Below, one piece after another: positions 5,494 through 22,541 of a stretch of DNA of 39,281 nt. A program made the position numbers and the translations under genes. The notes beneath the pieces are model-generated. The model was not told where the DNA came from. It saw only the letters and a program-made list of their open reading frames with translations, and did not search any database. Origin of the DNA: Mangrovibacterium marinum (GTDB lineage: Bacteria > Bacteroidota > Bacteroidia > Bacteroidales > Prolixibacteraceae); contig NZ_QAAD01000014.1 in NCBI RefSeq assembly GCF_003046625.1, forward strand, positions 1 to 39,281. Direction: 5' to 3'. Numbering within the stretch: position 1 is the stretch's first letter; each line of letters starts with the position of its first letter.

Positions 5494-6252
5494 ATGAAAA
5501 GTGAATTAATTGATGCGTTAAAATTGAAGATGCAAGCTGTTGCCGTAATCCTGAGTGACGATAAACCGGAGGATGGCTTGCACTTTAAAGATAACCGCAT
5601 GGGCGGTTGTGTGGCAGCCATGCTGGTTGCGGCCAGTAAAAAGAACCGGCTGGCTTATTTCGATCGGAACAGCTACAGCTGTCCGGGCGGAGGAACCGGT
5701 TTGGGCTTCGGCGATTGTTACGGACAATTTCCGATTGATTGTCTGCTGTCGACCGGTAATATGGCCTTTGCCGAGAAAATGGGGAAGGCCGGAGCATTAA
5801 TGGAAGAAGGAGAACGATTTTATGAAAATCCGAAGGTTGCCCGCAATTGGGTGAACTCCGTTCCGATGACCGATGTTCCGACTAACTATGTAGTATTTAA
5901 GCCCTGGAATTTACTGGCAGCGGACGATAAACCCGAAATGATCATCTTCTTTGTGAATCCGGATCAACTTTCGGCACTGGTGGTGATGGCCGATTATAGT
6001 CGCGGAATGAGCCAGAGTGTTATCGCACCCTTTTGTGCTGCTTGTCAATCCATCCTTTTTGGCTACGAGGAAGCGCAACAAGAAAAGCCCCGGGGAATTA
6101 TCGGCTTTTTCGATATCGCAGTTCGTTCGCATGTCGACCGCGATATGTTGACTTTTACCGCACCCTATGCTTTGTTTCAGGAAATGGAACGAAACGTGGA
6201 AGAAAGCTTCCTGAAGAAACACGCCTGGGAGAAATTGCAGGAACGACAGTAA
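5494..6252 (+). CDS. DUF169 family protein
   Basis: This 252-residue soluble protein has no signal peptide or membrane helix. It matches DUF169 (COG2043) by its opening (LIDALKLKMQAVAVILSDDKPEDG), the cysteine in MGGCVAAML, the glycine-rich CPGGGTGLGFG, and the later VVFKPW...VVMADYSRG and PFCAACQSI. The family is common in anaerobes and has no established reaction. Conserved cysteines suggest metal or cofactor binding, which is inference. It stands alone between the repeat array and the PhnA-like gene. Confidence 0.85.
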   Translation: MKSELIDALKLKMQAVAVILSDDKPEDGLHFKDNRMGGCVAAMLVAASKKNRLAYFDRNSYSCPGGGTGLGFGDCYGQFPIDCLLSTGNMAFAEKMGKAGALMEEGERFYENPKVARNWVNSVPMTDVPTNYVVFKPWNLLAADDKPEMIIFFVNPDQLSALVVMADYSRGMSQSVIAPFCAACQSILFGYEEAQQEKPRGIIGFFDIAVRSHVDRDMLTFTAPYALFQEMERNVEESFLKKHAWEKLQERQ

Positions 6253-6313
6253 TCGGCTTTATTTCGACCATTTGACAGGATAAGCGCTTTAAGTTAGTCT
6301 GTAAACCACCTGA

Positions 6314-6344
6314 TTTTCAATTTACAGATAATCGCTTATCTTTG
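6314..6344 (+). promoter_or_regulatory. Bacteroidota-type promoter for the PhnA-like gene
   Basis: TATCTTTG at 6337-6344 matches the -7 element TAnnTTTG. A TTTTC at 6314-6318 sits 18 nt upstream in the place of the -33 TTTG. The gene starts at 6403, giving a leader of roughly 50 nt. Confidence 0.6.
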
Positions 6345-6402
6345 CGCGCTCATAAAAAAACATTCCGGGACCTTGGTTTCCGGGCCATTCAAAATCAACA
6401 AA

Positions 6403-6960
6403 ATGAGTATCGAAAAAGCATTGAAAGACCGCAGTGGTTCGGTTTGCGAACTTTGTGGTAATACCGAAGGGCTTAGCGTTTATGCCCTTCCTCCGGTAAC
6501 CGAGAATGACAGCGACAAATGTGTGTTGCTGTGTTCAACCTGTAACAGCCAAATTGAAGAGCCGGAAACCATGGATGCCAACCACTGGCGTTGTTTGAAC
6601 GACAGCATGTGGAGCACTGTTCCTGCTGTTCAGGTGTTAGCCTGGCGTTTGCTGAATCAGCTGAAGCAATTCGATTTGGTTGACATGATGTACCTCGATG
6701 AGGAAACACTGGCCTGGGCCAAGTCGGGTTTAGTTGAAGACGGAGCGAAACATGTTGACAGTAACGGTGCTGTGTTGAAAGCCGGTGATAGTGTTGTTCT
6801 GATCAAAGATCTGGTTGTGAAAGGAGCTGGTTTTACAGCCAAACGCGGAACCGCTGTTCGTAACATCTCACTGGTTGCCGATAATCCCGAACATATTGAA
6901 GGAAAAGTAAACGGTCAGCAAATCGTGATCTTGACGCAATATGTGAAGAAGTCGAACTGA
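6403..6960 (+). CDS. PhnA/YjdM-like zinc-ribbon protein
   Basis: The 185-residue product has an N-terminal zinc ribbon with C15-EL-C18 and C44-ST-C47, then a C-terminal PhnA domain with the typical run VLKAGDSVVLIKDLVVKGAG...KRGTAVRNI and NGQQIVILTQYVKK. This is the PhnA/YjdM family. Despite the name it is not the phosphonoacetate hydrolase, and its cellular role is unclear. I chose ATG 6403 (MSIEKALKDRSG), the usual family start; the frame extends 10 codons further upstream to a codon at 6373 but into leader sequence. It has its own promoter and ends at a bidirectional terminator. Confidence 0.88.
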   Translation: MSIEKALKDRSGSVCELCGNTEGLSVYALPPVTENDSDKCVLLCSTCNSQIEEPETMDANHWRCLNDSMWSTVPAVQVLAWRLLNQLKQFDLVDMMYLDEETLAWAKSGLVEDGAKHVDSNGAVLKAGDSVVLIKDLVVKGAGFTAKRGTAVRNISLVADNPEHIEGKVNGQQIVILTQYVKKSN

Positions 6961-6982
6961 TCCGACTGACACCGATATTAAA

Positions 6983-7004
6983 AAAGGCTCCAATGGGAGC
7001 CTTT
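6983..7004. terminator. Bidirectional rho-independent terminator
   Basis: A perfect 9-bp stem AAAGGCTCC / GGAGCCTTT with loop AATG lies between the converging PhnA-like gene and the efflux operon. The minus strand has a six-T run after the stem and the plus strand a shorter one, so it best serves the operon ending at 7078. Confidence 0.85.
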
Positions 7005-7077
7005 CTTGATTAAGTAAACTATTGAATTGTCAGTACGGTAATTGCTACTACTCAACTACCCTTCTTTCAGGAGATTT

Positions 7078-7794
7078 CTAAATAAACTTTTCGCGTTTTT
7101 GTAAGTTAAACAACCCGTACAAGATGAAAACCACGGCTCCGGTTGTCAGGAAAATCCGGTTTTTCAAGGCAATACCTTCCCAAACCACTTCGCTCATATT
7201 CCGGGGAACATTAAACGGATTCAGAAAAATATTCCACATTGTACGCTCTGTGACGTTTTGCAAAAACAGTGCCAGAACTCCCAATATGACCATCACAACT
7301 GCTGTTCCGTTTCCGTTTTTGATGATCGTGGAGAACATGAAAGCCATACTTCCCAGAAAAAGTACCGGGAACATGATTTGACCGGTCATCTCCACCCGGT
7401 TTATTGGTGCCAGAAAGACGTAGCTCAGCAACGAAAATCCGTAAAGGATGAGGGCTATCAATACAAAAACCAAGACCAGACGAACCAGCCATACTTTGTA
7501 GCGGTAGTCGGGTATTCCGAACAAAATTTCCAAAATCCCGGCATCCACATCATTCTGTATGCCGAAGGTCATGGGGTAGAAGATGAGCAGGATGGCCGGA
7601 AAGAGCAGGATGCCGTAAACGAACTCCTCGTCGGGGGTGGCGCCGTTAATCACGCCCATGATGGCGATGAAAATATAAAAGGCCAGCGCCGCCAGCAAAA
7701 ACCAAATAAACCGTCCGGCAAAGATGATGCGGAAATTGTATTTGATCATGCTTGCAATCAGGTTGGTGGTATTCTTTATTTTTCGTTTTTCCAT
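7078..7794 (-). CDS. ABC-2-type permease, last gene of the efflux operon
   Basis: The 238-residue protein has about six hydrophobic segments: FIWFLLAALAFYIFIAIMGV, GILLFPAILLIFYPMTFGI, VRLVLVFVLIALILYGFSLL, MFPVLFLGSMAFMFSTI, VVMVILGVLALFL and FLTTGAVVFILYGLF. The pattern fits a small ABC-2 exporter permease, including the cytoplasmic loop DAGILEILFGIPDYRYKVWLVR. Its ATG overlaps the stop of the RND-ABC fusion gene (TAATG), so it is translationally coupled to the protein carrying the second ATPase domain. The obvious inference is that this permease partners that domain. It ends the operon just before the terminator at 6983-7004. The substrate is unknown. Confidence 0.85.
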   Translation of the reverse strand: MEKRKIKNTTNLIASMIKYNFRIIFAGRFIWFLLAALAFYIFIAIMGVINGATPDEEFVYGILLFPAILLIFYPMTFGIQNDVDAGILEILFGIPDYRYKVWLVRLVLVFVLIALILYGFSLLSYVFLAPINRVEMTGQIMFPVLFLGSMAFMFSTIIKNGNGTAVVMVILGVLALFLQNVTERTMWNIFLNPFNVPRNMSEVVWEGIALKNRIFLTTGAVVFILYGLFNLQKREKFI

Positions 7795-10700
7795 TATTTC
7801 AAGTCTTTAATCAAACACAAATAAGCATCTTCCAGCATCGGTTTAACTTCAATGGCATCCGGTGCAGGTTTTTCTTTGGCCAGTATGCGTAGCCTGATTT
7901 TATCATCAACCCGCATGTGGTGAACAACCATTTGTTTGTTGGGCATTTTGTCAAATTCGGAAGCCGGGATATCGTATTGCCAAACCAGCTTTTCGGCCAG
8001 GTCAACCATGTTCATCGGTGTTCCGTGGTATTTCACGCGTCCGCGGATAATCACAGCCACCTGGTTGCACGAGCTGGCAATATCTTCGATAATGTGAGTC
8101 GAGAAAATGACGATTCGCTCGCGGCTCAATTCAACCAACAGGTTCCGGAAGCGAATCCGTTCGCGCGGGTCAAGTCCGGCTGTCGGTTCATCCACTACAA
8201 GGATGCGTGGTAAGTGCAACAGGATTTGTGCAATACCGATTCGTTGTTTCATACCGCCCGAGAAGGAGCCAATTTTTTCAGTGCGTCGGTCGTACATGTG
8301 AACAGCCTTCAATACATATTCCAGGCGTTTGTGTCGTTCGTCAACATCGGTCAATCCTTTCAGTAGGGCCTGGTATTCCAGATAGTCCCAGGCCGGCATA
8401 TTTTCGTAAGTGCCGAACTCCTGCGGCAGGTAACCGATTAAGCCTTGCAGCTCTTCGCGTTTTTCCTGCGTGTCGATGCCGTTGATCCAGATCTTTCCGT
8501 AGCTCTGTTCCAGAATACCACAGATCGTTCGCATCATGGTCGATTTACCGGCACCGTTAGGGCCAAGCAAACCAAACATCCCCGTCTTGATTTCGAGTGA
8601 AACGCCGTTGAGGGCTTTGAACGGCACCTTGCGTTTCCCGATCAGCGGAATTTGTTTCACCACCCGGTAAGTTGTCCGGCGCAGTGAACCGAAACGCCCG
8701 GTAATCCGGTCGACGTTCACTTGTTCTTCGTACAGGCGTTTGGCCGTGACTGAAATTACCAGTCCCAGATACCAAAGCACAGCAAGGGCGATAACCAAGC
8801 CAATGTATTTGGTTTTTTCGTAGAGGATGACCAGTTCAACAAGGGGCAAAATCCAGAAAAGGAACAGATGACTCCATTTGTGCAGGAGGCGATGGCTTTT
8901 TTTCTGGCTTGCTTCAATCTGATTGTTGAGGTAGATGAGTACCGGTTTCCAGATTGTGAGTACATAGAAGTAAACCATCAGCATCATGAAGGCAATCCAG
9001 AAGGCTTGGCCCAGGAAGAAGAAGGTGAAATAGATCAGGAAGGCCAGCAAGGGCACTTGCCAAACCAGTTGGTCGAACTCGCGCCAGCTGCGGAACTCTT
9101 TTTCCAATCCTGCCCGGCGGCGAATGTTCAAACCGCCGATCCATTCGCGGGAGAAACGCCCCGGACGATCGTAAATTTTTACCAGGTTTTGTATGCGGAT
9201 ATGCACCCGTTCGTCCGGATCGATGAGTTTGGTTGCGGCTTTCTTCAAGCTGTTCAGTACAAACCAGCTTGTTCCGGGGATCAGCACAACAGCCAATACT
9301 GTATCGAGCATTTGCCAGGTTAGGTCTTCAACGCGCGAATAAATCCAGACGAAGGACGCCGCAATAAGTACCAGCTGAACCGTTTTCAGCTTCCAGTTGA
9401 GGGAGTAGAACCACTCCAGTGCATTTTCCAATCCGGAATACATGGTTGGGATAAAAATAAGCGTTAGCAGCGTGCTCAAAGCCAGACCACCAATGACGAT
9501 AATGGCGAACGGAGCACCGATAACACTCACATATTCTGCTTGCCCCATGGCTAATGGAACCATCGCAACAATTGTTGTAATTGCCGTGATCAGGATCGGA
9601 CGCACGCGCGATAAGCCGGCCATCATCAAGGCTCGTGAGCGACGGTAGCCGCGTTTTCGCAAAATGTTACTGTAGTCGATCAGGATAATTCCGTTGTTGA
9701 CCACGACGCCCAATAAGATCAGGAAGCCAATCATGGTGTTGGCGTTGAACAGGCTGTTGCCGGTAATGATCAGCGCAATTAACGATCCGATGGCAGCCAA
9801 CGGAATCGAGAACAACAGTACAAAGGGCGTAACAACCGATTCGAAAACCGAGGCCAGAATCATAAAGATCAGCAGGATGGCGGCAACGATCATAAAGGTA
9901 AATTCCTCCAGATCATCTTCCTCGTGGATCACTTCAGCAGCCATGCCGGTTGGGAAGTTGTAGCTGGCAATCAGGTTGTCGATCTCGTAACGGTACGAAG
10001 CCAGAATATCGTTGGAACTTTGTGCCTCGCTGTCGAAGCTGTAAGTAATCTCGATTTGTTTTTCCTGGTTCACCCGGTTGATGGTTGACAAGCCACGGGC
10101 ATAAACCAGTTGTGTGAAGTTTTGCAAATCGTGCAATCCTCCGCTGGCATCAGCCACCTGAACTTTTTTCAAATCGTCCATGGTGCGGGTGTCTTCCTCT
10201 TCGTCCTCATCTTCCTGGTTGATGATGATTTCGTATTCATCGGTTCCCTGGTTGAAGGTAACGCCGGTGGAAATTTCACCGGAAAAGGAATTTAATTCAC
10301 TGGCAACATTGCCCAAGGTGATGTTATATTCGGTCATCAGCAGCGGATCGAAGCGCATGTGAACCTCGGGTTGGTTGTCGGAGACGTTGAGGCGGGAGCT
10401 GTTGATGATATCCATGTCGTCGAGGAAGTATTTCAAATCTTCAGCTACTGTTTGCATCGATTCAAAATCCTGTCCTTTCAGCACGATCCGTTCCGACTCG
10501 CTACCGATTCCCAGCAGCCGCTGGAAGTTGGCCATCATGTTGCCGCCACCTCCTCCGAAGCCACCTCCGCTTCCCGAGCTGCTTTCTTGCATCGAAATTT
10601 CAGCCGGACGAATATCTCTGACCGACTCGTAAACGGCCGTTTTAATCTCGGCAAAGCTTCGGCCGTCAACTTTCTCGTAGTCTTCAACCAATTTCAAGGT

Positions 10701-12503
10701 TACATTGGCCGATTCTTCTTCAATTCGGCTGACAACATCCAGTTTTTCCGGTACATCGTTAAGCTTCTCTTCAATTTTTTGCACCGTTTCGTCGGTTTTC
10801 TGAAGGCTCGACCCGGTTGGCATGGTGATGTATAGCTGAATTTCGTCGTTTTCAACTTCAGTTAGTGAACTAACACTTACGGTAAGCGCCAGAAAAATCG
10901 TGATGAAGAAAACGGCTACGGCTCCTAACACGGTTCCTGCGGGATTTCGCATACACGATTTCAGGAGCAACAGATAAATCTGCACCATTCGGTTGTTGGT
11001 TGTCACTTTCTCGAAGGCAATTTTTTGGCTTCGGCGACCTCTCAAAATAAAGTGAATGGCCATTGGTACAAAAAGCAAGGCCACCACCAGCGAAACCAAC
11101 AAGGTTGAAATAATGGATACGCCGACGTTTTTACCGAGCATCTCAATCATGTAGTTGCTCGAAAAAACAAACGGAAGGAAGACAGTGATCGTGGTTAGGG
11201 TGGCCGCTACGATAGATCGCCAAACTTCGGTTGTTCCCTGCAATACAGCTGTGTCCGGTTCAACACCTTTGCCGGCCAGCCGGTAAATATTTTCGAGCAC
11301 CACAACACTGTTGTCGAGCAACATCCCGACGGCCAGTGCCATGCCAACCAAGGTCAGGCTGTTGAGGGTGATGCCGTAGGCGTAGAAAAAGTTGAACGCC
11401 GTGAAGATGGAAACCGGAATGGCTAAGGCAATGAACGCCACAATTCGGGCATTCTTCAGGAACATCCACAGTACAAATACAGCCATCAAACCTCCAATCA
11501 GGGCCAGGTTAATAATTTGGTTGATGTTGTCTTCCATCGTTTCGGCCGAGTTGCTTTGAACGACCAGTTGAACATCTTTGGTCTTCAGTTTTTCATTCAG
11601 CTTGTTGATTAAGGCCAACGCTTTGTGCGATAGTTCAATCTGGTTAGCCTGCGAATCGTTCACCAATTGAATGGTAATGGCATCCAGGCCGTTTACGCGG
11701 CTGTAGCTGGTTTGCTCTTTCACGCCAAAGCGGACTTCGGCAATATCTTTCAGCAAAATAGGACCATCGGCAATAACGAGGTTTTCAATATCCTTGACTT
11801 CGGAATACTGAGCCGTAACGTGCACGAAGTAAAGCTGATTTTGCTCGTACAAGTTCCCCACATAAGTGCGCGATTGGGCATTTTGCGATAAAGCCGAACG
11901 AATGGTGGCCGGCGTAATGTTGTAAGCCTCACAGGCTCCTTTGTCGGGAATAATCTCAATCGACTTTTCCTGCCCACCGTAAACATTCACCCCGGCAATG
12001 CCGTCGAGGTTTTCCAGTTCACTGGTAACTTCTTCGTCAACCACATTGCGTACCCGATCAACACCGCCGCTGCCCCGTGCCTGCAATTCCATGAACTGGT
12101 TGTTCATTTGCGACAGGTCGATGCGGTTTACATTAACGGTTATGCCGTCGGGCATGCTCGATTGCATTTCATTCACCTTTTCCTGCAATTTCAGGTAGGC
12201 AAAATTGAAATCAACATCCTTCTGGTAATAAACAACGATGCTTCCCCGGCGGGAGTTGATGGTGGATTCGAGCGATTCGATACCCTCCAGCGTACTGATG
12301 GCTCCCTCCAACGGAATGACAACCTCATTTTCGAGGTAGGTCGGGTCCGATTCCTGCGAGGCTGCCGCCTGCACATACAGGAACGGCAATTCGGCGTTGG
12401 GAAGAAGCTCCACGCTCAGCTGCTTGTACGACACATACCCCAGCAGGGTAAGGCCGATAAACAGCATGCTGATCATGGTTTTTCTATCTATTATAAATCT
12501 CAT
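7794..12503 (-). CDS. RND efflux permease fused to a multi-helix segment and an ABC ATPase domain
   Basis: This 1569-residue protein combines two transporter classes. Residues 1-~1025 are a full RND (AcrB/HAE1-type) permease, with VELLPNAELP near the start, the TM4 motif GMLLDN (D397, N398) and the TM10 motif GVVVNNGIILIDYSN. The periplasmic part carries a glycine-rich loop (~640) and an acidic run (~768). Residues ~1030-1270 add about six more helices. Residues ~1290-1569 form an intact ABC ATPase: Walker A GPNGAGKS (K1320), Q-loop Q1361, signature FSGGMKQ (1414-1420), Walker B ILVVDE (E1439) and H-loop H1470. The C-terminus EDAYLCLI resembles that of the stand-alone ATPase at 21648. No stop or frameshift interrupts the 4.7-kb frame. 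Its start overlaps the upstream RND gene (ATGA) and its stop overlaps the permease gene. It probably joins the upstream RND in a heteromeric pump; the ATPase part may drive the permease at 7078. Confidence 0.92.
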   Translation of the reverse strand: MRFIIDRKTMISMLFIGLTLLGYVSYKQLSVELLPNAELPFLYVQAAASQESDPTYLENEVVIPLEGAISTLEGIESLESTINSRRGSIVVYYQKDVDFNFAYLKLQEKVNEMQSSMPDGITVNVNRIDLSQMNNQFMELQARGSGGVDRVRNVVDEEVTSELENLDGIAGVNVYGGQEKSIEIIPDKGACEAYNITPATIRSALSQNAQSRTYVGNLYEQNQLYFVHVTAQYSEVKDIENLVIADGPILLKDIAEVRFGVKEQTSYSRVNGLDAITIQLVNDSQANQIELSHKALALINKLNEKLKTKDVQLVVQSNSAETMEDNINQIINLALIGGLMAVFVLWMFLKNARIVAFIALAIPVSIFTAFNFFYAYGITLNSLTLVGMALAVGMLLDNSVVVLENIYRLAGKGVEPDTAVLQGTTEVWRSIVAATLTTITVFLPFVFSSNYMIEMLGKNVGVSIISTLLVSLVVALLFVPMAIHFILRGRRSQKIAFEKVTTNNRMVQIYLLLLKSCMRNPAGTVLGAVAVFFITIFLALTVSVSSLTEVENDEIQLYITMPTGSSLQKTDETVQKIEEKLNDVPEKLDVVSRIEEESANVTLKLVEDYEKVDGRSFAEIKTAVYESVRDIRPAEISMQESSSGSGGGFGGGGGNMMANFQRLLGIGSESERIVLKGQDFESMQTVAEDLKYFLDDMDIINSSRLNVSDNQPEVHMRFDPLLMTEYNITLGNVASELNSFSGEISTGVTFNQGTDEYEIIINQEDEDEEEDTRTMDDLKKVQVADASGGLHDLQNFTQLVYARGLSTINRVNQEKQIEITYSFDSEAQSSNDILASYRYEIDNLIASYNFPTGMAAEVIHEEDDLEEFTFMIVAAILLIFMILASVFESVVTPFVLLFSIPLAAIGSLIALIITGNSLFNANTMIGFLILLGVVVNNGIILIDYSNILRKRGYRRSRALMMAGLSRVRPILITAITTIVAMVPLAMGQAEYVSVIGAPFAIIVIGGLALSTLLTLIFIPTMYSGLENALEWFYSLNWKLKTVQLVLIAASFVWIYSRVEDLTWQMLDTVLAVVLIPGTSWFVLNSLKKAATKLIDPDERVHIRIQNLVKIYDRPGRFSREWIGGLNIRRRAGLEKEFRSWREFDQLVWQVPLLAFLIYFTFFFLGQAFWIAFMMLMVYFYVLTIWKPVLIYLNNQIEASQKKSHRLLHKWSHLFLFWILPLVELVILYEKTKYIGLVIALAVLWYLGLVISVTAKRLYEEQVNVDRITGRFGSLRRTTYRVVKQIPLIGKRKVPFKALNGVSLEIKTGMFGLLGPNGAGKSTMMRTICGILEQSYGKIWINGIDTQEKREELQGLIGYLPQEFGTYENMPAWDYLEYQALLKGLTDVDERHKRLEYVLKAVHMYDRRTEKIGSFSGGMKQRIGIAQILLHLPRILVVDEPTAGLDPRERIRFRNLLVELSRERIVIFSTHIIEDIASSCNQVAVIIRGRVKYHGTPMNMVDLAEKLVWQYDIPASEFDKMPNKQMVVHHMRVDDKIRLRILAKEKPAPDAIEVKPMLEDAYLCLIKDLK

Positions 12504-15500
12504 AGTTCCGGTCCTTCAGCTGTGGGTTTTACAAAGCGGTCTTTAATGCTTTCGAAAATTTCGTACACACAAGGGATAACCACCAGCGAAAGCAAGGTTG
12601 AGGTGACCATACCACCAATTACGGCCAGCGCCATCGGCGAGCGTAATGAAGCACTTTCGCCAATGCCGAGTGTTAGTGGCAGCAAGGCCAGAATGGTTGT
12701 CAAACTGGTCATCAAAATCGGTCGAATGCGTTGCTGTCCGGCTTGCAAAATGGCATCGTGCCGACTGAGACCTCCTTTGCGCAATTGCAAAATCCGGTCG
12801 ACCAGAATGATGGAGTTGTTCACCGCAATACCGGCCAGCATGATGATCCCGATAAAAGCCATCATGTTGAACGATTTCCCCATGAAGAAGAAGGTTAGTA
12901 TTGAACCAACAACGGCCAGGGGAATGGTCAGCAGAATGGTGAAGGGATGCAGTAGTGATTCGAACTGCGAGGCCAGCACCATGTAAACTAAAATGATGGA
13001 TAATAGCAGCGCGAAGCCTAAGCTCTGCATCGATTCCTGCCGTTTGGCTTCCTCGCCGCTGATGTTTATTTTGTAATCCAGCGGAAGGTTGATCGGAGCA
13101 ATAACGGCTTTGATTTCTTTCACGGCTTTGTCCAGCGGTGTGTTTTTATCGAGTTGGGCGGTTATTTTGCCAATCCGGTTTTGGTTGCGACGGAAGATCT
13201 CTTTGGGCGATTGTCCCATTTTAATCTGAGCCAGTTCGTTCACGTAGAACTCTTGGCCGTCGCCGGTAATCTTCAGGTCGTTGACGTTGGCCAGGGTCTT
13301 CTCCGGCAATTTTAGGGTGATGTCCTGCATTTCGCCCAATCGCTCAACCTGACCGGCTGTTTTCCCGGAAAGTTGATCTTCAATTTGCGATACAATTGAG
13401 CTTACACTCAGGCTGTGCATGCCGGCACGCATGCGGTCAACCAGAATCTCAAGTTCGGGGGAACCTTCTTCCATCGACGATTCAACGTTGTAAATTCCGT
13501 CCAGCCCTTCAACCTTGCTTTTCACCTCCGCAACAAGCGTCTCAATTTCATCCAGCTCGCTACCCTGCACTTCAATGACCAGCGGAGGATCGTCGGTACC
13601 CATAATGCTTTTCAGGGCCGTTTCGTCCTGTTTATAGCTGATCTCCATCTCGGGCAACTCGCCCAGCGTTTTACTGATGGATTGAATAGCCGTTGTCGAG
13701 GCAATCTGGCTGTCGTCTTTCAGAATAACTTTGACCGTTGCCGTGTTTTCACCCTCAAAGATGGAGCTTGCGCTGGTGCTCATACCCGAGGAAGGGCCGA
13801 TCTGGCTGTACACAGCATCGAGGTTGTCGCCGAGTATCTCGCTGATGATGCCTTCAATGTTTTCAACAGCCGAGCTTGTTCGTTCCAGGCGTGTTCCTTC
13901 GCTCATTCGGATGTCCAGACTAAACTCGCGGGTCTCGGTTTTCGGCATAAATTCGGTGCCAATCATTGGAACTAGAGCTGCTGATATACCCAGTAGAATA
14001 ACTGAAAGCAAGATCACCATCCACCGTTTTTTCAGTATCTGATCCAAAAAGCGACCGTAGCCTTTTACTTCAACGGTGCTGACTTTTACCTGTTTTTTGT
14101 TTTTGTAGAACAGGTTGAAAAGCATTGGGATGACCAGAATGGCGACTGCCAATGATGAAACCAGCGAGAAGGCAACCGTCCAGGCCTGATCTTTAAACAA
14201 CTCGCCCGATGCGCCATGTAAATAAACAATCGGCAGGAACACCACAATGGTCGTCAGCGTGGAGGCAATAATGGCCCCGCTAACCTGCGAGGTGCCTTCA
14301 ATGGCCGCATCCTTCACCGACATGCCCTCGTCGCGGTTGCGGAAAATATTTTCCATGACCACAATGGCATTATCCACCAACATACCGGCACCCAACGCCA
14401 GACCACCCAAGGTCATGATGTTTAGGGTGAGATCGTTAAAGTACATCAGGTTGAAGGTGGCGATGATCGAAATTGGAATGGCAATACTGATGATGAGCGT
14501 ACTCCCGATTCGGCGGAGGAAAAGGAATAGTACAAATACAGCCAGTAGAATCCCCAGCAGGGCGGAGTTTTCAACTTCTCCGATGGCTCCCTGAATGAAA
14601 GTTCCCTGGTTGGAAACAATGGTGAGATGATAGCCGGGAAGTGCTTTTTCGATGTTGCCGATTTCCTTACTGATTGCTTCAACGGCCTTTACGGTGTTAA
14701 ACTTGGTTTCCTTGTAAATTGAAAGCCCCAGACAACGTTGGCCGTTCAGGCGCACAATATTATCCGGCTCCTTATTTTCGATGGAAATTTTGGCCACTTC
14801 GCGCAAAAAGATTGGCGCATAAGCGGCATCGTCATTGTCCGATTGCACTTGTTTGTAGCCAACAATCACATTTTCAAAATCACTCACATCGGTCAACAGG
14901 CTAATGCCTTTGACCACGTAACGGGTGCCCATTTCTTCGATACTTCCGCCCGAAATGCTTTGGTTGAAGTTGCTGATTTTAGTGGAAATGTCATCCAGCG
15001 TTAGCCCAAAAGCATCCAGCATGTACTGATTGGTTGCAATCAGCACCTGCGGTTCTTCGTCGCCGGTTACTTCAACTTCGGCAACCCCTTCGAGGCGAAC
15101 CAGCTCGTTGCGGATATAATTTTGAGCCACTTTGCGGAGCTCATTCATGTCGTCCACATTATCGTGCGTAAGGCCGATTTCGATTACCGGGCTTGTATTG
15201 GGATCGTGCTGGGTGATGTTTATTTCATCCAGGTCTTCGTTTTGTGCAAAGGAAGAAACCGCTTTCTGGAGATCCAGAAAAGCGTCGTCCATATTTTTGT
15301 TCCAGGCATATTCTACGGTAATTTGCGCGCTGCCCACTTTCGAGATGGAGGAAACCTCGACCACGTCGGACTGGCGGATGGCCAAAGCCTCGAGGTTTTC
15401 CACAAATTGCTTTTCGATTTCTTCGGGCGGACGTTCGCCGGCTTCCAGCTCAATGAACAAACGCGGATTATTCAGGTTCGGAAAGAGGTCGATCCCCAGC

Positions 15501-15595
15501 TTGTCGTACGAGATATAGCCCAGCAGTATGATGCCGAACACAATCATCGAAATGGTAACCGGGAACTTGACCGAAAATTCGCTTAACTTCTTCAC
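12500..15595 (-). CDS. RND efflux permease (HAE1-type)
   Basis: This is a conventional-length RND permease of 1031 residues, beginning with V(M)KKLSEFSVKFPVTISMI and the canonical first helix followed by GIDLFPNL. TM4 has GMLVDNAIVVMEN (D408, N409) and TM10 has AGIAVNNSIILVDR, the aspartate and VNN pattern of proton-driven pumps in this subgroup. I start it at the GTG at 15593-15595, 13 nt after the adaptor stop; the frame stays open to 15652, but that would overlap the adaptor gene by 44 nt and adds non-RND sequence. Its stop overlaps the next RND gene by 4 nt (ATGA). Two consecutive RND genes with one adaptor and one TolC suggest a heteromeric MdtBC-like trimer, which is inference. Confidence 0.92.
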   Translation of the reverse strand: MKKLSEFSVKFPVTISMIVFGIILLGYISYDKLGIDLFPNLNNPRLFIELEAGERPPEEIEKQFVENLEALAIRQSDVVEVSSISKVGSAQITVEYAWNKNMDDAFLDLQKAVSSFAQNEDLDEINITQHDPNTSPVIEIGLTHDNVDDMNELRKVAQNYIRNELVRLEGVAEVEVTGDEEPQVLIATNQYMLDAFGLTLDDISTKISNFNQSISGGSIEEMGTRYVVKGISLLTDVSDFENVIVGYKQVQSDNDDAAYAPIFLREVAKISIENKEPDNIVRLNGQRCLGLSIYKETKFNTVKAVEAISKEIGNIEKALPGYHLTIVSNQGTFIQGAIGEVENSALLGILLAVFVLFLFLRRIGSTLIISIAIPISIIATFNLMYFNDLTLNIMTLGGLALGAGMLVDNAIVVMENIFRNRDEGMSVKDAAIEGTSQVSGAIIASTLTTIVVFLPIVYLHGASGELFKDQAWTVAFSLVSSLAVAILVIPMLFNLFYKNKKQVKVSTVEVKGYGRFLDQILKKRWMVILLSVILLGISAALVPMIGTEFMPKTETREFSLDIRMSEGTRLERTSSAVENIEGIISEILGDNLDAVYSQIGPSSGMSTSASSIFEGENTATVKVILKDDSQIASTTAIQSISKTLGELPEMEISYKQDETALKSIMGTDDPPLVIEVQGSELDEIETLVAEVKSKVEGLDGIYNVESSMEEGSPELEILVDRMRAGMHSLSVSSIVSQIEDQLSGKTAGQVERLGEMQDITLKLPEKTLANVNDLKITGDGQEFYVNELAQIKMGQSPKEIFRRNQNRIGKITAQLDKNTPLDKAVKEIKAVIAPINLPLDYKINISGEEAKRQESMQSLGFALLLSIILVYMVLASQFESLLHPFTILLTIPLAVVGSILTFFFMGKSFNMMAFIGIIMLAGIAVNNSIILVDRILQLRKGGLSRHDAILQAGQQRIRPILMTSLTTILALLPLTLGIGESASLRSPMALAVIGGMVTSTLLSLVVIPCVYEIFESIKDRFVKPTAEGPEL

Positions 15596-15608
15596 GGCTC
15601 GGCCCTTT

Positions 15609-16667
15609 CTATTTGATGATTTTAACTTTTGAACGGTTGCGCAGGGTTTCAAAACCTTTCACCACCAGCCGATCGTTTGCTTTCAGCCCGGAAGTGATTT
15701 CAACGCGGTCGTTATCTTCGTATCCCAGGGTGACTTGTTTCTCTTCGGCTGTACCTTGTGTAACCACATACACCATTTTTCCGCGGCGGTTGGATACAAT
15801 CACCTTCTTGGGAATTACAACCACGCTGTCCTTTTTGTCCAGGATGATTTCGCTTTGCACGAACATCCCCGGGCGCAATAGTAAATCGGGGTTTTCGATT
15901 TCCAGCTTCCCGGTAAAGGTTCGGGTTTCGGTGCTGATCGCCGGCGACAATTGGCTAACCTGGCCTTGCAGTGTGTCGTTCGGAAGCGTGTAGTTCATCA
16001 CGCGAATGGCCTGTCCGCGCTTCACATCATTAATATATTTCTCTGGCAGGTTTACTTCCAGCAATAATTCGTCGTAGCTCATCAGGCTTACAACCTTAGT
16101 GCCACTGGCAACGCGTGTTCCCGGGGTGTAGGTCGGGAGGTCGGTAATGATACCATCGAAGGGGGCTTTAACCTGCAATTTGCCAAGCTGAATTTGTGCC
16201 AGCTCGTAGCTGTCTTTAGCATTCACCAGCGAAACTTCAGCGTCGCTCAGCTCGCTTTGTGTTACGCCACCTTTGTCGAACAGTGATTTTTGCTTCTGAT
16301 AAGTTTGCTCGGCAATCTGCAGGCTCAGCTTTTTAGCTTCCAGTCCGATGCCGTTGAGGTACTCGTCGTCCTTCAGTTCGATAATGGACTGCCCTTTGCG
16401 GACTTTATCGCCCAAGGCAAATTTACGGCCGGTTTGCGGGTTTACTTTTAGCATGTAGTCGCCGCTTGTTTCGGTTGTTAATATTGCTTCTGCCGAGGCT
16501 GTTACGGTGCCTGTTGTGCTGATGGTTTGTTCAATAGATCCCGGTTTGATGTCTTCAACTGAAACGGGGATGGCCACATCGGTTTCGGCATTGCTGCTTT
16601 GGTTGTTACAGGCGGCCAGGGTCAGTAGTGCAAAAAATGCCAGTGGTGTTAATGTTTTTATATTCAT
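15609..16667 (-). CDS. RND periplasmic adaptor (membrane fusion) lipoprotein
   Basis: The 352-residue protein begins with a lipoprotein signal, FFALLTLAAC, with lipid-accepting C20. A biotinyl-lipoyl half motif and barrel-sandwich strands follow (GDKVRKGQSIIELKD, then LQVKAPFDGIITDLPTYTPG after the hairpin). The alpha-helical hairpin spans ~105-155. The beta-barrel region has LRPGMFVQSEIILDKKDSVVVIPKKVI and the membrane-proximal end ASGLKANDRLVVKGFE-like sequence. In tripartite pumps the adaptor joins the inner-membrane RND to TolC. It sits between the TolC gene (36 nt upstream) and the first RND gene (13 nt downstream). It is the only adaptor in the operon, so any ABC arm would have to share it or work without one. 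Confidence 0.93.
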   Translation of the reverse strand: MNIKTLTPLAFFALLTLAACNNQSSNAETDVAIPVSVEDIKPGSIEQTISTTGTVTASAEAILTTETSGDYMLKVNPQTGRKFALGDKVRKGQSIIELKDDEYLNGIGLEAKKLSLQIAEQTYQKQKSLFDKGGVTQSELSDAEVSLVNAKDSYELAQIQLGKLQVKAPFDGIITDLPTYTPGTRVASGTKVVSLMSYDELLLEVNLPEKYINDVKRGQAIRVMNYTLPNDTLQGQVSQLSPAISTETRTFTGKLEIENPDLLLRPGMFVQSEIILDKKDSVVVIPKKVIVSNRRGKMVYVVTQGTAEEKQVTLGYEDNDRVEITSGLKANDRLVVKGFETLRNRSKVKIIK

Positions 16668-16703: not shown

Positions 16704-18194
16704 CTATTTCTTTTTCGATGAGGATTGAAGGAGTTCTTCGGGAACAATTGCCTCGCCGTGTTCAAAGTCGTACAGGGTTTGAATTTTGAGGTTCAGCAAT
16801 TCAATTTTATAGTCGATCAGCGCTTGTGCGTAGGACATCTTTTGGGTTGAAAGCTGTGTTTGGTAGAGCCCCAGATCCATACCGGTCAGGTCGCCGTTGC
16901 GATAACGTTCCTGGTTAATTTCGTAAGTAAGCTGGGCGTTGCGTTCGTTTTGTTTGGCAATTTCAATCTGCATTTTCTGGTTTTGCAGGCTGCGGTAAGT
17001 CGAACGGATGTCGATGATGATCTGCTTTTTTTCTTCGTCCAGATCCAGTTCTGCTGATTCAATAACCGCTTCCTGCGCTCTGATGCGCGCTTTTTTCTCC
17101 CCCCAGTCAAACACGGGAACATTAAAGGAAACCGACACTTGCGGGTTGCGGGTGGGATTGTTGTAAATGTCGGCCAGTTTTTCGTTTTCACCAATTAAGC
17201 CAATCGAAAGGTTTACATCGCCTTTGAATTCGTTTTGCGCTTTGGTGGTAATTAAGGTAAACTGGGAGTTCTCGATATCAATCTCACGCTGACGGATTTC
17301 CATGCGCGATTTCAGGCCGTAGTCAATTGCCTTTTGCATATCCACTTTCACCTCCGAGGCGTTAACATCGGCCATCACGGCAATTTCCTCGAAAATGTCC
17401 ATCCCGATGTATTGCTTAAATTGGTCTTTGGCATTGTCGAGGGTAACCTGCTGGTTTTGTACATCCGACTGAGCTTGTGCATAGTTTAGCTCCGCCTGGT
17501 ACAGTTCCTCTTTGGCCGACAAACCAGCTTCCACTTTGTTTTTGGTGATCTCGTAGGTTTCCTTCGTGTTTTTAAGCTCGTCCTGTGAGATGGAGAGACT
17601 CATCTGGGCCAGATAAACATTGTAAAAGAACTGCGTAACCTGTTTTTCAAGATTCAGCTTTTGCATGGCATAACTCAGGTTCGAGTTTTCCAGGTCGAGC
17701 TCCAGTGTTTTCAATTCTTGTTTTAGTTTGTTGTAGGTGAAAAGGGGTTGGGTTACACTAAGGTACAGGTTGTTTGTGAACGCCTCGTTTTCGAGTCCAC
17801 TGGAGGTACTGTTGCTTTTTTGCCAGCCAAAGCTGTTAACCAGCGAGATGGTTCCATCGGTAACCAAAACCGGTTGCTCAATGGTGAAAGTGCCGTAGCT
17901 GGCCAGGTTCTCGTTGGTATACCAGGTTGAAGTATAATCGTCGAATGAACGGTTTTTACTGTAGTCAACAGGGGTAAGGCTGAGTGTGAATTGTGATTTT
18001 AATGCTGCTTTTTGGGCTTTCAGCAGTTGTTGCGAGCGTTCCAAATTCAATAGTGAAGTTCGGATTGAAGGACTGTTTTGTTGGGCAATCTCCATGGCTT
18101 TGTCGAGCGTGAGGATTTGTTGTGCCGACAAAAAGCCGCCGGGCAATACTGTACAGAAAAGCAGAAGCTTGATTTGGGTTAGAATGGATTTCAT
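16704..18194 (-). CDS. TolC-family outer-membrane channel
   Basis: The 496-residue protein has a cleavable signal peptide ending ...GGFLSAQQ and two outer-membrane efflux (OEP) repeats with long amphipathic helices. Examples are LTLDKAMEIAQQNSPSIRTS at the start, KNKVEAGLSAKEELYQAELN in the first repeat, and NQERYRNGDLTGMDLGLYQ in the second. VSFNVPVFDWGEKKARIRAQ is a typical TolC strand-helix junction. It starts 15 nt after the permease/M1-like gene and is followed by the adaptor gene. It should be the exit duct for the RND pumps. Confidence 0.93.
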   Translation of the reverse strand: MKSILTQIKLLLFCTVLPGGFLSAQQILTLDKAMEIAQQNSPSIRTSLLNLERSQQLLKAQKAALKSQFTLSLTPVDYSKNRSFDDYTSTWYTNENLASYGTFTIEQPVLVTDGTISLVNSFGWQKSNSTSSGLENEAFTNNLYLSVTQPLFTYNKLKQELKTLELDLENSNLSYAMQKLNLEKQVTQFFYNVYLAQMSLSISQDELKNTKETYEITKNKVEAGLSAKEELYQAELNYAQAQSDVQNQQVTLDNAKDQFKQYIGMDIFEEIAVMADVNASEVKVDMQKAIDYGLKSRMEIRQREIDIENSQFTLITTKAQNEFKGDVNLSIGLIGENEKLADIYNNPTRNPQVSVSFNVPVFDWGEKKARIRAQEAVIESAELDLDEEKKQIIIDIRSTYRSLQNQKMQIEIAKQNERNAQLTYEINQERYRNGDLTGMDLGLYQTQLSTQKMSYAQALIDYKIELLNLKIQTLYDFEHGEAIVPEELLQSSSKKK

Positions 18195-18209: not shown

Positions 18210-21200
18210 TTACTGTTTTATCAATTTTATGGCATCGGCAATAACCATGGTGCCGGTGTTTTCGTTGGTCAGTTCAACCAGAGCGGTGTCGGGCGAGAAA
18301 TAGTAGGCACCCAGATGGTTCCAGCCGTCTTCGGCCGACTTTAGGTCAACATTCATTTTTTCGTCGCCATCGTCGTGGTGGATAATGTAATGATATTCAC
18401 CCGGGTTTCGGTTGCGTCCCCAGCCCCGTTGATTTTCTTTCGAGATGTAGGTATACACATCGTAAAATCCGGCTTGCTGAATGGGAATATTCCATTGTGC
18501 CTTATGGCTGCCGTCGCCCGACCGGATGTAATAGGCCGAGCGGATATAGGCGCCATAAAAGCCCGAGTTGGTGGTTAATGTCCAGTTAAGTTCCGGTCGC
18601 CAGCGGTTGAAGCCCTGGTAGCGGTCGGCGTTGGGCTTTTCGGGAATCAGCAGCTTTTGTAACAAGCTCACATCGCTGGTGCCAGTAACCGTAAAGCCCG
18701 GATCCTCATTGTCCAGGATGATTTCGTTGTCTTCGGCAATGTGAACGGGAGTGTCCACGATTTTTTCACCTTCATAAGGTGTTGCCTTTTGGTCTTCTTC
18801 AATATTATCGAGCGGAAGGTTTATTGCTGAAGGAATATTTTTGGATGCCAGGGTGTTGATGCTTGCTCCGCGGGGTGTGCCCGACAAAAGGAAGCTCACC
18901 TCCTTGGTTTGGTTGCCGTCCAGTTGTATCAGCTTGGTGATATTGTCCGATGAGCTTCGGTTGCGTCCAAAGCCTCCGCCGGTTCTGAACTCAACCGACA
19001 AAATGCCTTCGGTATCCTCGGTGTTGCTGACTTTCAGTTTAACCATTGTTTTCAGTTGGTCGCCATCCAGCACGTTTACAGCCGATACATTGCCGATCAG
19101 GAAGGCCGGCAGTTCGGTGCTGCTAAACCATCCTTTCATATAGGGGATCAGGTCGAAGCCAAACTGGCTGCGTACCCGGCGGTTGAAATCTTCGATTGAG
19201 GCATTGCTGAATTTGATTTCGTTCAGATAGTCGAAGAGGAAATCCTCGAATGCGTCATCGCCGGCTTTCTTTTTCACCAATGAAAACAAGGTTGTCCCTT
19301 TCAGCTGAATGACATTATCGATGATTTGTTTCTTTTCCGGATCCTTCAGCAAATCTTCGAAACTGTTGGAGAGTAAGGCCAGGTTGGCTTGTTCGTCTTC
19401 CGACATTCCCTGGATGTCGCGCATCCAGCCCATCTGATTGTTATCAAGACTGCTCTCCTTGTAACTTTCGAATACGCGGTCGGTTACCGGCCATTGCTCC
19501 GAGCTAATGTAGTAGGCATAGTTGTAAAACAGCGGGAAAGCGTAATAGGTGTTCTGGGTTTCTTCGACCTGCATCTGGCCACCCGAGCGGCTGAAGTTTG
19601 GTCGTCCCGAGGCTCTGGTAAACGAGGAGATGAAGTTTTTCAACACCTGAATTTTCTTTTCTTCGGGGGTCATCTCCTGGCTTCGGTCGCGGCGTCCCCA
19701 TCGTCCCATATTGCTGAAACGTCCTTCAAAATCGGCATCATCCACCAAAACTCCTTTCTCGCCAAAGAGCACCATTTCCGGTTGCATTTGTTCCCGGGTG
19801 CCACTCAGCACCCGTTCGTAACTGTAAAACTGAACTGGCGTTTCAACCAGCGAGAAGCGTTCGAAGGGATAGTACAGGTCGAGCGATCGTTCAAAGTCTT
19901 GCAGGGCTTCGGCAACAACTGCCGGTATGGTGTCCTTAATGTCTTCGAAAAAGTTGGTGAAGTAATCGTGTCCTTTCTGGTAATAGATATTGAAGTCCAG
20001 CCCGTCGATGTTTTGTTCCAGCAGGTTGTACTCGCCAATGACCAGAGATATCTGTGAGTTAGCATGAGTCGACTCAAATTTGAAGGTGTCTCCGTCCTGC
20101 TCAGCCTTACCCTGCGAAATTGCTGTCAGCCCCGGAGTTGTTGTTACTTCCAGCTTGTAATTACTGAACTGGCGGGCTAACCACTGACTGTTTGTTTTTC
20201 CATAGCCGGCTCCCGGAATAGGGTACCAATTGGCTTCCCGGGTTAACAGCACGTAGTCGGGTGTGAGAAATGCATATCGTTTGTCGATTTGGTACATGAA
20301 GTTTTTGAAGGCCTCGGCCCGGGTTTCTTCATCAATATCCAGGAAACAGGCTGCTTCGTTGATGTGCCCTTTGTAGGTAAATTCAAATTCGGCTTTTTCC
20401 CCCGGCGAAAGCTCGAAATTCGTTAGCGATACGACATTTAGCTTTTGGTCAAAGGCCTGTGGCTTTCCGTTTGCGTTGAGTTGCTCAAGTTGAAGACCCG
20501 GATTCAGACTGAAAATTACCTTTTTCAAGGTCGATTTCTGACTGTTTTTAACCTTCAGTTTTGCCGTTACTTCAATTTGGTTGCCTTCGTGCTTTAAGCG
20601 GATGTCGTAGTCGGCTACGTCGACTGCTGCCGTTCCCAGGTAGCTCTCATTCAGCTGAAGCATATCCTCGCGGAGATGCTGGTCGTTCATGAATCCGTTG
20701 ACATGAGAATAACCTAAATAAAGTCCAAATAGTACGCAGACCGTTCCCAAAATGTTCGAGATATACCGAACGCCATCGGATTGCGGCAGACGTTTCAGAA
20801 AAAGGACGGTGTAGAAGATAAATCCCAAGCCGAAGAAGAAGTACATACCCCGGTGGATGAGCAGCGTCGGCAGGTTGCCAAAGCCTACAAAATCGGAGTA
20901 GGTCAGGGGGATGTTGAAGGACATATAGTCGAACAGGTAATAAAACTTATCCTGCAGGTAAAACAATGAAATGGCGACATAACCAAGCATCACCACAAAG
21001 GTGATCGCCTGATTTTTCAACAGCGACATCATCAAAAACGACAAGCCCATAATGAACACCAGGGTGGGGATGCTGATTAGCAAAAAGTAATAAAGGTAAC
21101 TGGCAAGGTTAACATCAACGTTTTTGGCAATCAGGTTGAACAGAAGCGTGATGGCTAAAATAATCAGGTTGAGCACCAGGAAAACGCCGAGGTTGCCGAT

Positions 21201-21647: not shown

Positions 21648-22541
21648 TTACACAGCACTCCACTGGTTTAGCTGGTTTTCCATGAAATACACGTAAGCAT
21701 GTTCCAGGTTTGGATCGATATTGTGGCCGTAATAGCCGTTAATCTGATCGGCAACCACCTGAATTTCCCACCCCTCGGGCGTAGGCACCGTTGAAATAAC
21801 CGGGTACTTCTCGTTAATCTCCATATATTCGCTTTCGGTAGCCTTAATGAGCCATACCTTGCCATTGGCTTGGCTCACAATGTCGTCGGGGGAGCCGGTG
21901 TAGGCCAGTTTACCTTTGTTCAGCAGGGCCATACTGGTACAGGTGCTCGAAATGTCGCCGACGATGTGGGTCGATAGAATGATGGTCACATCGTTTGTTG
22001 AAATGGTTGACAACAAGTTGCGGAATCGGATTCGTTCTTCGGGGTCCAGACCGGTGGTTGGCTCGTCAACAATGATCACCCGGGGACTATTAATCAGAGC
22101 CTGGGCAATTCCCAGACGTCGCTTCATCCCTCCCGAGAGGCGGTTGGCCTGGCGGTCGCGTGCTTCGAACAGGCCAACTTCTTCCAGCATGCGGTCCACC
22201 TGCTCAGCTCTTATCTTTCGGTTTTTAATGCCCGACAGGCGTGCGGCATAGTCCAGAAATTCGTAGGTCTTCAGTTTCGAGAAAAAACGAAAATCCTGGG
22301 GCAGATAACCAAGCATCTTTCGGATCTCTTTGCGGTTTTTAACCAAGTCGAGGCCATCGATGGTGACCTTACCCGAGCTGGGTTTCATCAGGGTGACCAA
22401 AATCCGCATCAGGCTCGACTTGCCTGCGCCGTTAGGTCCCAGAAGGCCAAACATACCTTCGTTGATCTCCAGGTTGATGTCGTTGATTGCCCTGTTTCCG
22501 TTCGGATAAATCTTACTAAGACCTTCAATACTAATCTTCAT
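21648..22541 (-). CDS. ABC transporter ATP-binding protein, first gene of the efflux operon
   Basis: The 297-residue ATPase has all expected motifs: A-loop Y12, Walker A GPNGAGKS (K41), Q-loop in YLPQDF, signature LSGGMKR, Walker B VIIVDEP and H-loop STHIVGD. It belongs to the same subgroup as the ATPase domain of the RND fusion, sharing GMFGLLGPNGAGKS, RIRFRNLL and a C-terminus of the form E-(H/D)-AY. The next gene is a permease/M1-like fusion, its likely partner. It opens a seven-gene minus-strand run that continues to 7078 with short gaps or overlaps. The start MKISIEGLSKIY is canonical. Confidence 0.93.
   Translation of the reverse strand: MKISIEGLSKIYPNGNRAINDINLEINEGMFGLLGPNGAGKSSLMRILVTLMKPSSGKVTIDGLDLVKNRKEIRKMLGYLPQDFRFFSKLKTYEFLDYAARLSGIKNRKIRAEQVDRMLEEVGLFEARDRQANRLSGGMKRRLGIAQALINSPRVIIVDEPTTGLDPEERIRFRNLLSTISTNDVTIILSTHIVGDISSTCTSMALLNKGKLAYTGSPDDIVSQANGKVWLIKATESEYMEINEKYPVISTVPTPEGWEIQVVADQINGYYGHNIDPNLEHAYVYFMENQLNQWSAV

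Follow-up and report, generated by a model that had tools for sequence, protein, structure and literature searches.

The window examined in this work comprises 39,281 nucleotides of Mangrovibacterium marinum (RefSeq assembly GCF_003046625.1, contig NZ_QAAD01000014.1, positions 1 to 39,281). On its minus strand, an open reading frame (ORF) at 7794-12503 begins with ATG and encodes 1569 residues without an internal stop. The encoded protein joins a resistance-nodulation-division (RND) permease, here termed RND2, to the nucleotide-binding domain (NBD) of an ATP-binding cassette (ABC) transporter, here termed NBDb. Export pumps of these two kinds normally operate apart and draw their energy from different sources. 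The ATPase domain is itself discontinuous: its first strand and the A-loop tyrosine, Y1111, are followed by an inserted membrane segment of two to four helices, and only then by the remainder of the domain. The parts of the fusion gene are given below with the evidence for each, which includes an AlphaFold2 (AF2) model.

7794..12503, minus strand: RND2::NBDb fusion gene (P0001), 1569 residues; ORF, Pfam and orthologues
9435..12503, minus strand: RND permease part, residues 1-1023; Pfam ACR_tran at 2-1023 and alignment to MdtB
11313-11315, minus strand: codon of D397 of the RND part
9243..9389, minus strand: extra transmembrane pair, residues ~1039-1087; hydropathy, charge pattern and AF2 helices
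9171..9200, minus strand: first ATPase strand and A-loop tyrosine, residues 1102-1111; K1109 and Y1111 invariant, strand predicted by AF2
8733..9071, minus strand: four-helix membrane insertion inside the ATPase domain, residues ~1145-1257; hydropathy, AF2 and charge pattern
7797..8621, minus strand: remaining ATPase domain (Walker A to H-loop) and C-terminal extension, residues 1295-1569; ABC_tran and invariance

The RND half matches ACR_tran over residues 2-1023, the whole length of the profile, with 539.3 bits (Pfam cut-off 28), as befits a full-length AcrB-family domain of the hydrophobe/amphiphile efflux-1 (HAE1) class. The ATPase half matches ABC_tran over residues 1298-1442 with 99.8 bits (cut-off 25), and both profiles are matched by all of the 24 orthologues scanned. 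An earlier interpretation made from the letters alone (the sequence-only reading) had described a full RND permease and a complete ABC ATPase in one uninterrupted 1569-residue frame and had proposed a search with these two profiles; the scores bear it out, the strand, which it had left unstated, being minus. K1320, Q1361, the FSGGMKQ motif (at 1414), E1439, H1470 and D397 all lie where it had placed them. Moreover, K1320, Q1361, G1416, G1417, E1439 and H1470 are identical in 24/24 sequences of one alignment (A2) and 40/40 of another (A4), which share some genomes. The Walker A, Q-loop, signature, Walker B glutamate and H-loop are hence invariant in both.

The RND half departs from the canonical pattern. 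The AcrB-type proton relay consists of an Asp-Asp pair in transmembrane helix 4, a Lys in helix 10 and an Arg in helix 11. In the alignment to MdtB, D397 corresponds to the first Asp of the helix 4 pair, the second Asp is replaced by N398 and the helix 10 Lys by N936; the first Asp and the Arg (R968) are kept. D397, N936, N937 and R968 are invariant in 24/24 sequences of A2, in which residue 398 is Asn in 23 and Thr in one; as A4 starts at residue 510, D397 was counted in A2 only. The second Asp and the Lys of MdtB are absent from RND2 and likewise from RND1, the other RND permease of the locus. The claim that all catalytic residues of both halves are kept therefore stands for the ATPase and fails for the RND half, with a D-N / N-N relay against the D-D / K of MdtB. 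The D-N / N-N form also occurs in 25 of 39 RND ORFs without ATPase, a sample skewed by the scan seed VVNNGIIL, in which RND1 genes of fused clusters are also counted.

The second peculiarity of the protein, overlooked in the sequence-only reading, is the splitting of its ATPase domain by membrane helices. That reading had counted about six extra helices; the number holds, and the arrangement is of two sets, a pair (~1039-1087) and a group of four (~1145-1257), flanking the first NBD strand. Hydropathy places helices at ~1065-1083 and at four places within 1145-1257, and the helix just before 1058, recognised by eye and also present in the AF2 model, completes the pair with 1065-1083. Between the two sets, at 1102-1111, lies IRIQNLVKIY, which we take to be a typical first strand and A-loop of an ABC ATPase. 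Its counterpart in NBDa, a separate ATPase of the same cluster, is ISIEGLSKIY at residues 3-12, starting 29 residues before Walker A. In NBDb this contiguous arrangement, with the first strand ~30 residues ahead of Walker A, is absent. The distance is 209 residues in the window protein and 137-253 residues in 56 fusion-family loci, namely those in which the search pattern found both motifs, with at least two genomes counted twice; L049, missed by the pattern, has the first-strand motif at 1102 and Walker A near 1305. K1109 and Y1111 are invariant in 19/19 relatives of alignment A6 (two rows of which, L147 and L149, are near-identical) and in 40/40 of A4. The A-loop aromatic residue is thus present as Y1111, though ~200 residues ahead of Walker A. 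To our knowledge, an ATPase whose first strand and nucleotide-stacking tyrosine are set apart by membrane helices represents an unusual way to anchor an NBD.

Local structure and charge agree with this layout. In the AF2 model (residues 510-1569), 1102-1111 and 1295-1305 are called as strands, and four helices of 15-33 residues lie between them together with shorter ones. Mean net charge of the loops predicted to be cytoplasmic is +7.0, +3.7 and +9.1, and -0.1 for the short loop after the RND part, so that three of the four are clearly positive; the three short loops predicted to be periplasmic average -0.9, -0.3 and +0.6. The insertion has ~2 helices in L145/L146 (hydropathy scored one of those of L145) versus ~4 in the window protein, and an even number is expected if both flanks are cytoplasmic. 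The inserted helices are weakly conserved, and the helix pair is among the least conserved parts of the fusion. That the four inserted helices constitute a private ABC permease is ruled out by their reduction to ~2 in L145/L146, their weak conservation and the separate ABC-2-like permease encoded downstream in 37/39 of the single-frame loci listed below. In one fusion frame of 1627 codons (L150:9060-13940), a stretch rich in Ser and Gly separates the first ATPase strand from the membrane insertion.

The fusion is widely shared among relatives. A search of 61 genomes, including that of the window, found it whole in one frame in 31 and in pieces in 7; the remaining 23 gave generic, weaker RND matches only (best E 4.1e-104). 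In six of the seven the pieces lie at contig ends, and in the seventh (G007) the first 120 residues are missing in frame. Within the family of the window, 33 of 37 genomes carry the fusion whole or in pieces. Genomes drawn from the order and from the phylum gave matches in 39/295 and 6/392, respectively, with a linker profile (A1) that misses divergent members; two genomes of the order draw (G546 and G626) are 7-8% contaminated, and all four matches with frames below 1500 residues lie at a contig end. The fusion is therefore common in the family, occurs patchily in the order and is rare among the genomes of the phylum draw. The linker had no match in 72,556 plasmid records, which leaves the idea of plasmid cargo unsupported.

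A further scan, seeded by the peptides VVLENIYR and VVNNGIIL, returned at least 80 loci, and the phylum range that follows from it is a lower bound. Among the matches listed, 47 loci (L029-L075) represent the fusion or fragments of its gene. Single frames make up 39 of them, with L047 and L070 truncated at their ends, and contig ends interrupt 6 more. In L072-L074 only the RND part is visible before the contig end, and L067 and L072 come from one metagenome-assembled genome (MAG). The MAG locus L063 has an in-frame stop in the fusion gene, and in the MAG locus L061 the gene is split. The ~200 bases that split it (L061:5505-5722) hold a 41-base inverted repeat, 80% complementary, and the ATPase frame follows at 5717-7171. 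In a further 33 loci listed (L076-L108), with 26-31% identity, none (0/33) has RND and ATPase parts in one frame. As the locus sets of the different scans overlap (L055 = L145, L044 = L028, L032 = L019, L035 = L009), their counts are not additive. Carriers among the matches listed are spread over many Bacteroidota, with Bacteroides faecis, Parabacteroides massiliensis, Prolixibacter bellariivorans, Marinifilum fragile, Labilibaculum filiforme and Marivirga sericea among them, Bacteroides and Parabacteroides being gut genera, and the fusion of Sunxiuqinia elliptica is 77% identical to the window protein. Such identities point to Prolixibacteraceae as the probable family of the window. The fusion also occurs in MAGs labelled Calditrichaeota, Krumholzibacteria, Zixibacteria, Latescibacterota and KSB1, five phyla beyond Bacteroidota, labels that may be wrong or due to stray contigs.

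Both halves are under purifying selection. The ratio of nonsynonymous to synonymous substitution rates (dN/dS) between close relatives is 0.028-0.035 for the NBD and 0.042-0.069 for the RND part, each measurable in three of four pairs with synonymous sites near saturation. This selection and the intact single chain uphold the earlier view that the fusion is not a decayed join, and the domain order, which that view required to be found in other genomes as well, recurs in many. Since the same protein and gene cluster recur in many distantly related bacteria, the fusion looks like an old working machine and no sequencing accident. An assembly error, frameshift or pseudogene thus deserves next to no credence: L063, L061 and G007 do show a stop, a split and a truncation, but 39 of the 47 loci listed are single frames, contig ends account for the 6 that remain apart from L061 and L063, and selection is strong. 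A sequencing or assembly artefact is refuted by the independent genomes that carry the fusion in a single frame.

The fusion is one of seven cluster genes, all on the minus strand, in the order NBDa, TMDa, outer membrane factor (OMF), adaptor, RND1, fusion and TMDb, where TMD denotes a transmembrane domain of ABC type. Its companions are the following.

7078..7794, minus strand: TMDb (P0006), ABC-2 type permease of 238 residues; AF2 and Foldseek, without Pfam match
12500..15652, minus strand: RND1 (P0002), second RND permease; ACR_tran 707 bits, TTG start as listed
15609..16667, minus strand: periplasmic adaptor, a membrane fusion protein (MFP; P0003); TIGR01730 RND_mfp 211.2 bits, cut-off 94.9
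16704..18194, minus strand: TolC-like outer membrane factor (P0004); OEP 170.3 bits
18210..21539, minus strand: TMDa (P0005), ABC-2 permease with a large extension resembling M1 peptidase and Golvesin_C
21648..22541, minus strand: NBDa (P0007), separate ABC ATPase; ABC_tran 115 bits

The true start of RND1 is probably nearer 15595 than the listed TTG. TMDa matches ABC2_membrane_2 with 29.9 bits (cut-off 27.2) and Golvesin_C with 68.9 bits; Peptidase_M1 stays below its cut-off (21.9 against 27.7 bits), and an HExxH motif, sought in P0005, was not found. The M1-like region and Golvesin_C of TMDa (18210-21539) may form a periplasmic part without catalytic function. No Pfam family covers TMDb, and its PDB sequence search and profile comparison with TMDa were uninformative. 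Its AF2 model, with a predicted local distance difference test (pLDDT) score of 88.8, resembles the permeases of PmtCD, ABCG2, ABCG5/G8 and NosY in Foldseek (probability 0.85-1.00, template modelling (TM) score up to 0.59). ABC-2 permease partners are hence recognised by Pfam for TMDa and by fold only for TMDb (probability 1.00, E 4.1e-3, TM score 0.57). Scans against PADLOC and PHROG returned nothing beyond generic matches to RND permeases and ATPases. A PagL-like lipid A deacylase gene (22893-24122) and a gldB-type lipoprotein gene (24131-25129) stand immediately upstream of the cluster.

The cluster accompanies the fusion in other genomes. Among the 39 single-frame loci listed, RND1 is present in 37, TMDb in 37, the MFP in 35, the OMF in 35, TMDa in 31 and NBDa in 28. 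The partners present keep the same order in 39/39, trivially so where a locus is cut short, and missing partners fall at a contig or locus edge, except those of L051 and the TMDb of L075. An adaptor and an OMF, as co-encoded with HAE1 pumps, are thus found in 35/39 loci each with the misses at contig edges, and two different RND permeases share one adaptor as in the MdtBC type. In the very divergent L147-L149, from two contaminated genomes, the fusion is followed by a six-helix ORF (four-helix and shorter in L148) and a 548-residue OMF-like ORF, as judged by eye and helix count. In a Tannerellaceae MAG (L051:451-4042), the fusion cluster lacks NBDa and TMDa on the upstream side of the OMF.

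Relationships within the genome connect the partners. NBDa is the best of 42 other matches to NBDb in the genome of the window (219.8 bits, next 145), and the two align to the C-terminus, through a common C-terminal extension. The best non-self match of RND2 among those listed in its genome is RND1 (355.7 bits, next 243), which is 27% identical to the RND part of P0001. The NBD tree separates NBDa and NBDb from four other ATPases of the genome (98/98) and recovers NBDa as one group (98/98), with NBDb as one group unsupported (43/0) and outside branches long; it holds NBDa from 8 sources only (others were cut or filtered), and the outside set is four ATPases of the eight stretches fetched.

Comparison with known systems places each component among familiar kinds. 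The RND part finds its closest PDB sequence match in MdtB, and MdtABC, an HAE1 system, likewise has two RND permeases and one adaptor. MdtBC differs from the RND half in its relay residues, and it is not known to carry an ATPase, an ABC-2 permease or extra helices. HAE-1 RNDs are rarely heterotrimers such as MdtBC, according to PMC8277102. MacAB-TolC also encodes an ABC ATPase with an adaptor and a TolC-like channel; unlike it, the cluster has its NBDb at a C-terminus, fused to an RND permease, with ABC-2-like permeases as separate genes. In the PDB, the sequence neighbours of the NBD are ABCA transporters. The NCBIfam NBD models with the highest scores for NBDa and NBDb are DrrA and GldA, and TMDb resembles the permeases of PmtCD, ABCG and NosY by fold; we know of no member of the GldA / DrrA / NosFY / PmtCD / ABCA group whose NBD is broken up by membrane helices or joined to an RND permease. 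Membership of GldA itself (gliding-motility GldAFG) is ruled out by 168.8 bits for NBDb and 198.3 bits for NBDa against a cut-off of 402.6. ABC permease / M1-aminopeptidase-like proteins are an annotated type in Bacteroidota. TMDa resembles them in that its ABC-2 part precedes a weakly M1-like region, and differs from them in lacking the HExxH zinc motif and in ending with Golvesin_C.

The cluster may encode one export machine, in which a heteromeric, MdtBC-like RND-adaptor-TolC pump is covalently joined to a heterodimeric ABC-2 exporter; we assign this reading a probability of roughly 0.5. Observed directly are the fused frame, its motifs, the gene cluster, the resemblance between NBDa and NBDb and the permease fold of TMDb; for this machine we infer complex formation, pairing, stoichiometry, direction, substrate and coupling. 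In its favour stand the conserved single frame and gene order, NBDa and RND1 as best listed genome matches of NBDb and RND2, the MdtB and ABCA neighbours in the PDB, the TMDb fold, the invariant K1109 and Y1111 alongside the other ATPase motifs, purifying selection, the charge of the predicted cytoplasmic loops and the single group formed by the fused RND parts. RND1 and RND2 would form a mixed trimer like MdtBC, in which the stoichiometry is 2:1. With RND2 as the single copy, such a trimer would bring one NBDb per pump, and pairing of NBDb with the free NBDa beneath a TMDa:TMDb permease would therefore be favoured. By hydrolysing ATP, the ABC part would take a substrate, amphiphilic or lipid-like, out of the cytoplasm or inner leaflet and deliver it at the periplasmic face, where the RND pair would collect it and the proton gradient would drive its expulsion through adaptor and channel, the covalent tie keeping the loader beside the pump. 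That the substrate is an amphiphile or lipid is a guess drawn from the ABCA affinity of the ATPase. A dual-energy pump, with the membrane-split ATPase and the proton-driven RND mechanically coupled through the covalent link and the substrate carried from cytoplasm to outside in one linked cycle, appears doubtful. The sequence-only reading had suggested either coupling of ATP hydrolysis to the RND pump or tethering of an ABC exporter to an RND-TolC complex; the latter agrees best with the anatomy, given that a further ATPase, a further RND, two ABC-2 permeases, an adaptor and a TolC-like channel are all encoded in the conserved cluster.

Several points weigh against the merging of a mixed RND pump with a heterodimeric ABC-2 exporter. 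Both ATPases look catalytically complete, and two independent homodimeric ABC exporters fit this equally. Proton coupling is an assumption, since the RND relay departs from the D-D / K form. The AF2 model has a mean pLDDT of 76.8, a predicted TM score (pTM) of 0.51 and TM scores of ~0.2 to RND structures in Foldseek, so that only its local structure was used and the domain arrangement is not established by it; the simple hydropathy scan counts helices unevenly among divergent relatives. For TMDb, the best Foldseek E-value is 4.1e-3, with 0 matches at E 0.001. The MAG locus L061 offers a natural check on modularity: its RND gene stops behind the helix pair, and an ATPase frame of its own, 485 codons long, starts just before the first ATPase strand; as the ATPase is here a separate gene, the covalent fusion may not be indispensable. 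Furthermore, L051 has an opposite-strand gene in place of NBDa and TMDa, and L075 shows no recognisable TMDb within 10 kb downstream. Finally, RND1s group with unfused RNDs against the fused ones; as this separates RND1 from RND2, which are not sisters in the tree, it lends no support to a recent duplication behind the pair.

The link may serve as a tether only. An NBDb homodimer with two TMDb would then form its own ABC-2 exporter, NBDa and TMDa would form another, and both would work beside the RND-TolC complex without shared energy coupling, perhaps on different substrates. The position of TMDb after the fusion gene (37/39 loci listed), the full catalytic motifs of both ATPases and the retention of RND1, fusion and TMDb in L051 without upstream NBDa/TMDa speak for this arrangement, but NBDa is the best genome match of NBDb with a common C-terminal extension, TMDa and NBDa are kept in 31/39 and 28/39 of the fused loci listed with misses mostly at edges, and an NBDb homodimer would require two RND2 per complex, which would be awkward in a trimer. 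On balance it is possible, if on the unlikely side.

Two further accounts concern the role of NBDb. In one, NBDb would be a regulatory ATPase that gates, assembles or times the RND-adaptor-TolC complex by ATP binding or hydrolysis while the proton gradient performs all transport. The NBD is predicted on the cytoplasmic side of the RND protomer via membrane helices, and the inserted helices look like an anchor rather than a pore because their number varies and their conservation is weak. A purely regulatory ATPase would have no need of the ABC-2-like permease that follows the fusion in 37/39 loci listed, however, and the NBD finds its best scores against the models of GldA and DrrA and against ABCA chains, which makes this account unlikely. 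In the other, the ATP cycle of NBDb would itself drive or augment the conformational cycle of RND2, giving a pump run on ATP and protons. The covalent link passes through the helix pair, and an extra driving force is conceivable for RND1 and RND2, which lack the second Asp and the Lys of MdtB; yet the D-N / N-N relay is common (25/39, in the seed-biased sample) where no ATPase is attached, and the helix pair is among the least conserved parts. Such direct energisation is likewise unlikely.

Each component of the machine favoured above belongs to a known kind; what is new, as a variant, is that they are covalently joined and that the ATPase is split by membrane helices. Titles and abstract openings in open-licence PubMed Central held no earlier account of an RND-ABC fusion, and subscription journals or databases may mention one. 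Tripartite exporters are sorted by their energised inner-membrane part into ABC, RND and major facilitator superfamily (MFS) types in PMC8277102. The fusion family breaks this division in a covalent, conserved way, and it opens to direct test the question of whether loading by ATP and expulsion by protons can belong to a single coupled machine. Should the two energy sources turn out to be coupled, the system would be of a new kind. Naming proteins by their best single domain would hide the RND-ABC architecture.

The RND tree bears on the origin of the fusion. All fused RND parts (15/15, with L070, L075, L147 and L149 included) form one group with a Shimodaira-Hasegawa-like approximate likelihood ratio test (SH-aLRT) support of 100, and all 14 RND1s form another (SH-aLRT 100), which is consistent with a single origin of the fusion. 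A first tree, which had three long rows, had lost L070, L075 and L147 to a motif filter; the second, a quick LG tree without bootstraps, includes them. The unfused second RNDs of the tandem pairs L092 (Acidobacteria) and L108 (Spirochaetales) attach nearest to the fused group, a placement that weakly suggests that the fusion arose from an existing tandem RND pair. Such pairs, unfused and next to an adaptor gene, were seen at L092:8961-15355, L108:9917-16263, L103:9800-16439 and L105:9962-16293, in Acidobacteria, Spirochaetales and Omnitrophota records. Additionally, an unfused RND-ABC neighbourhood lies in Defluviitalea (Bacillota; L096:8664-16435), where an adaptor and an RND precede an ABC ATPase encoded separately, an ORF with eight helices and one more ORF.

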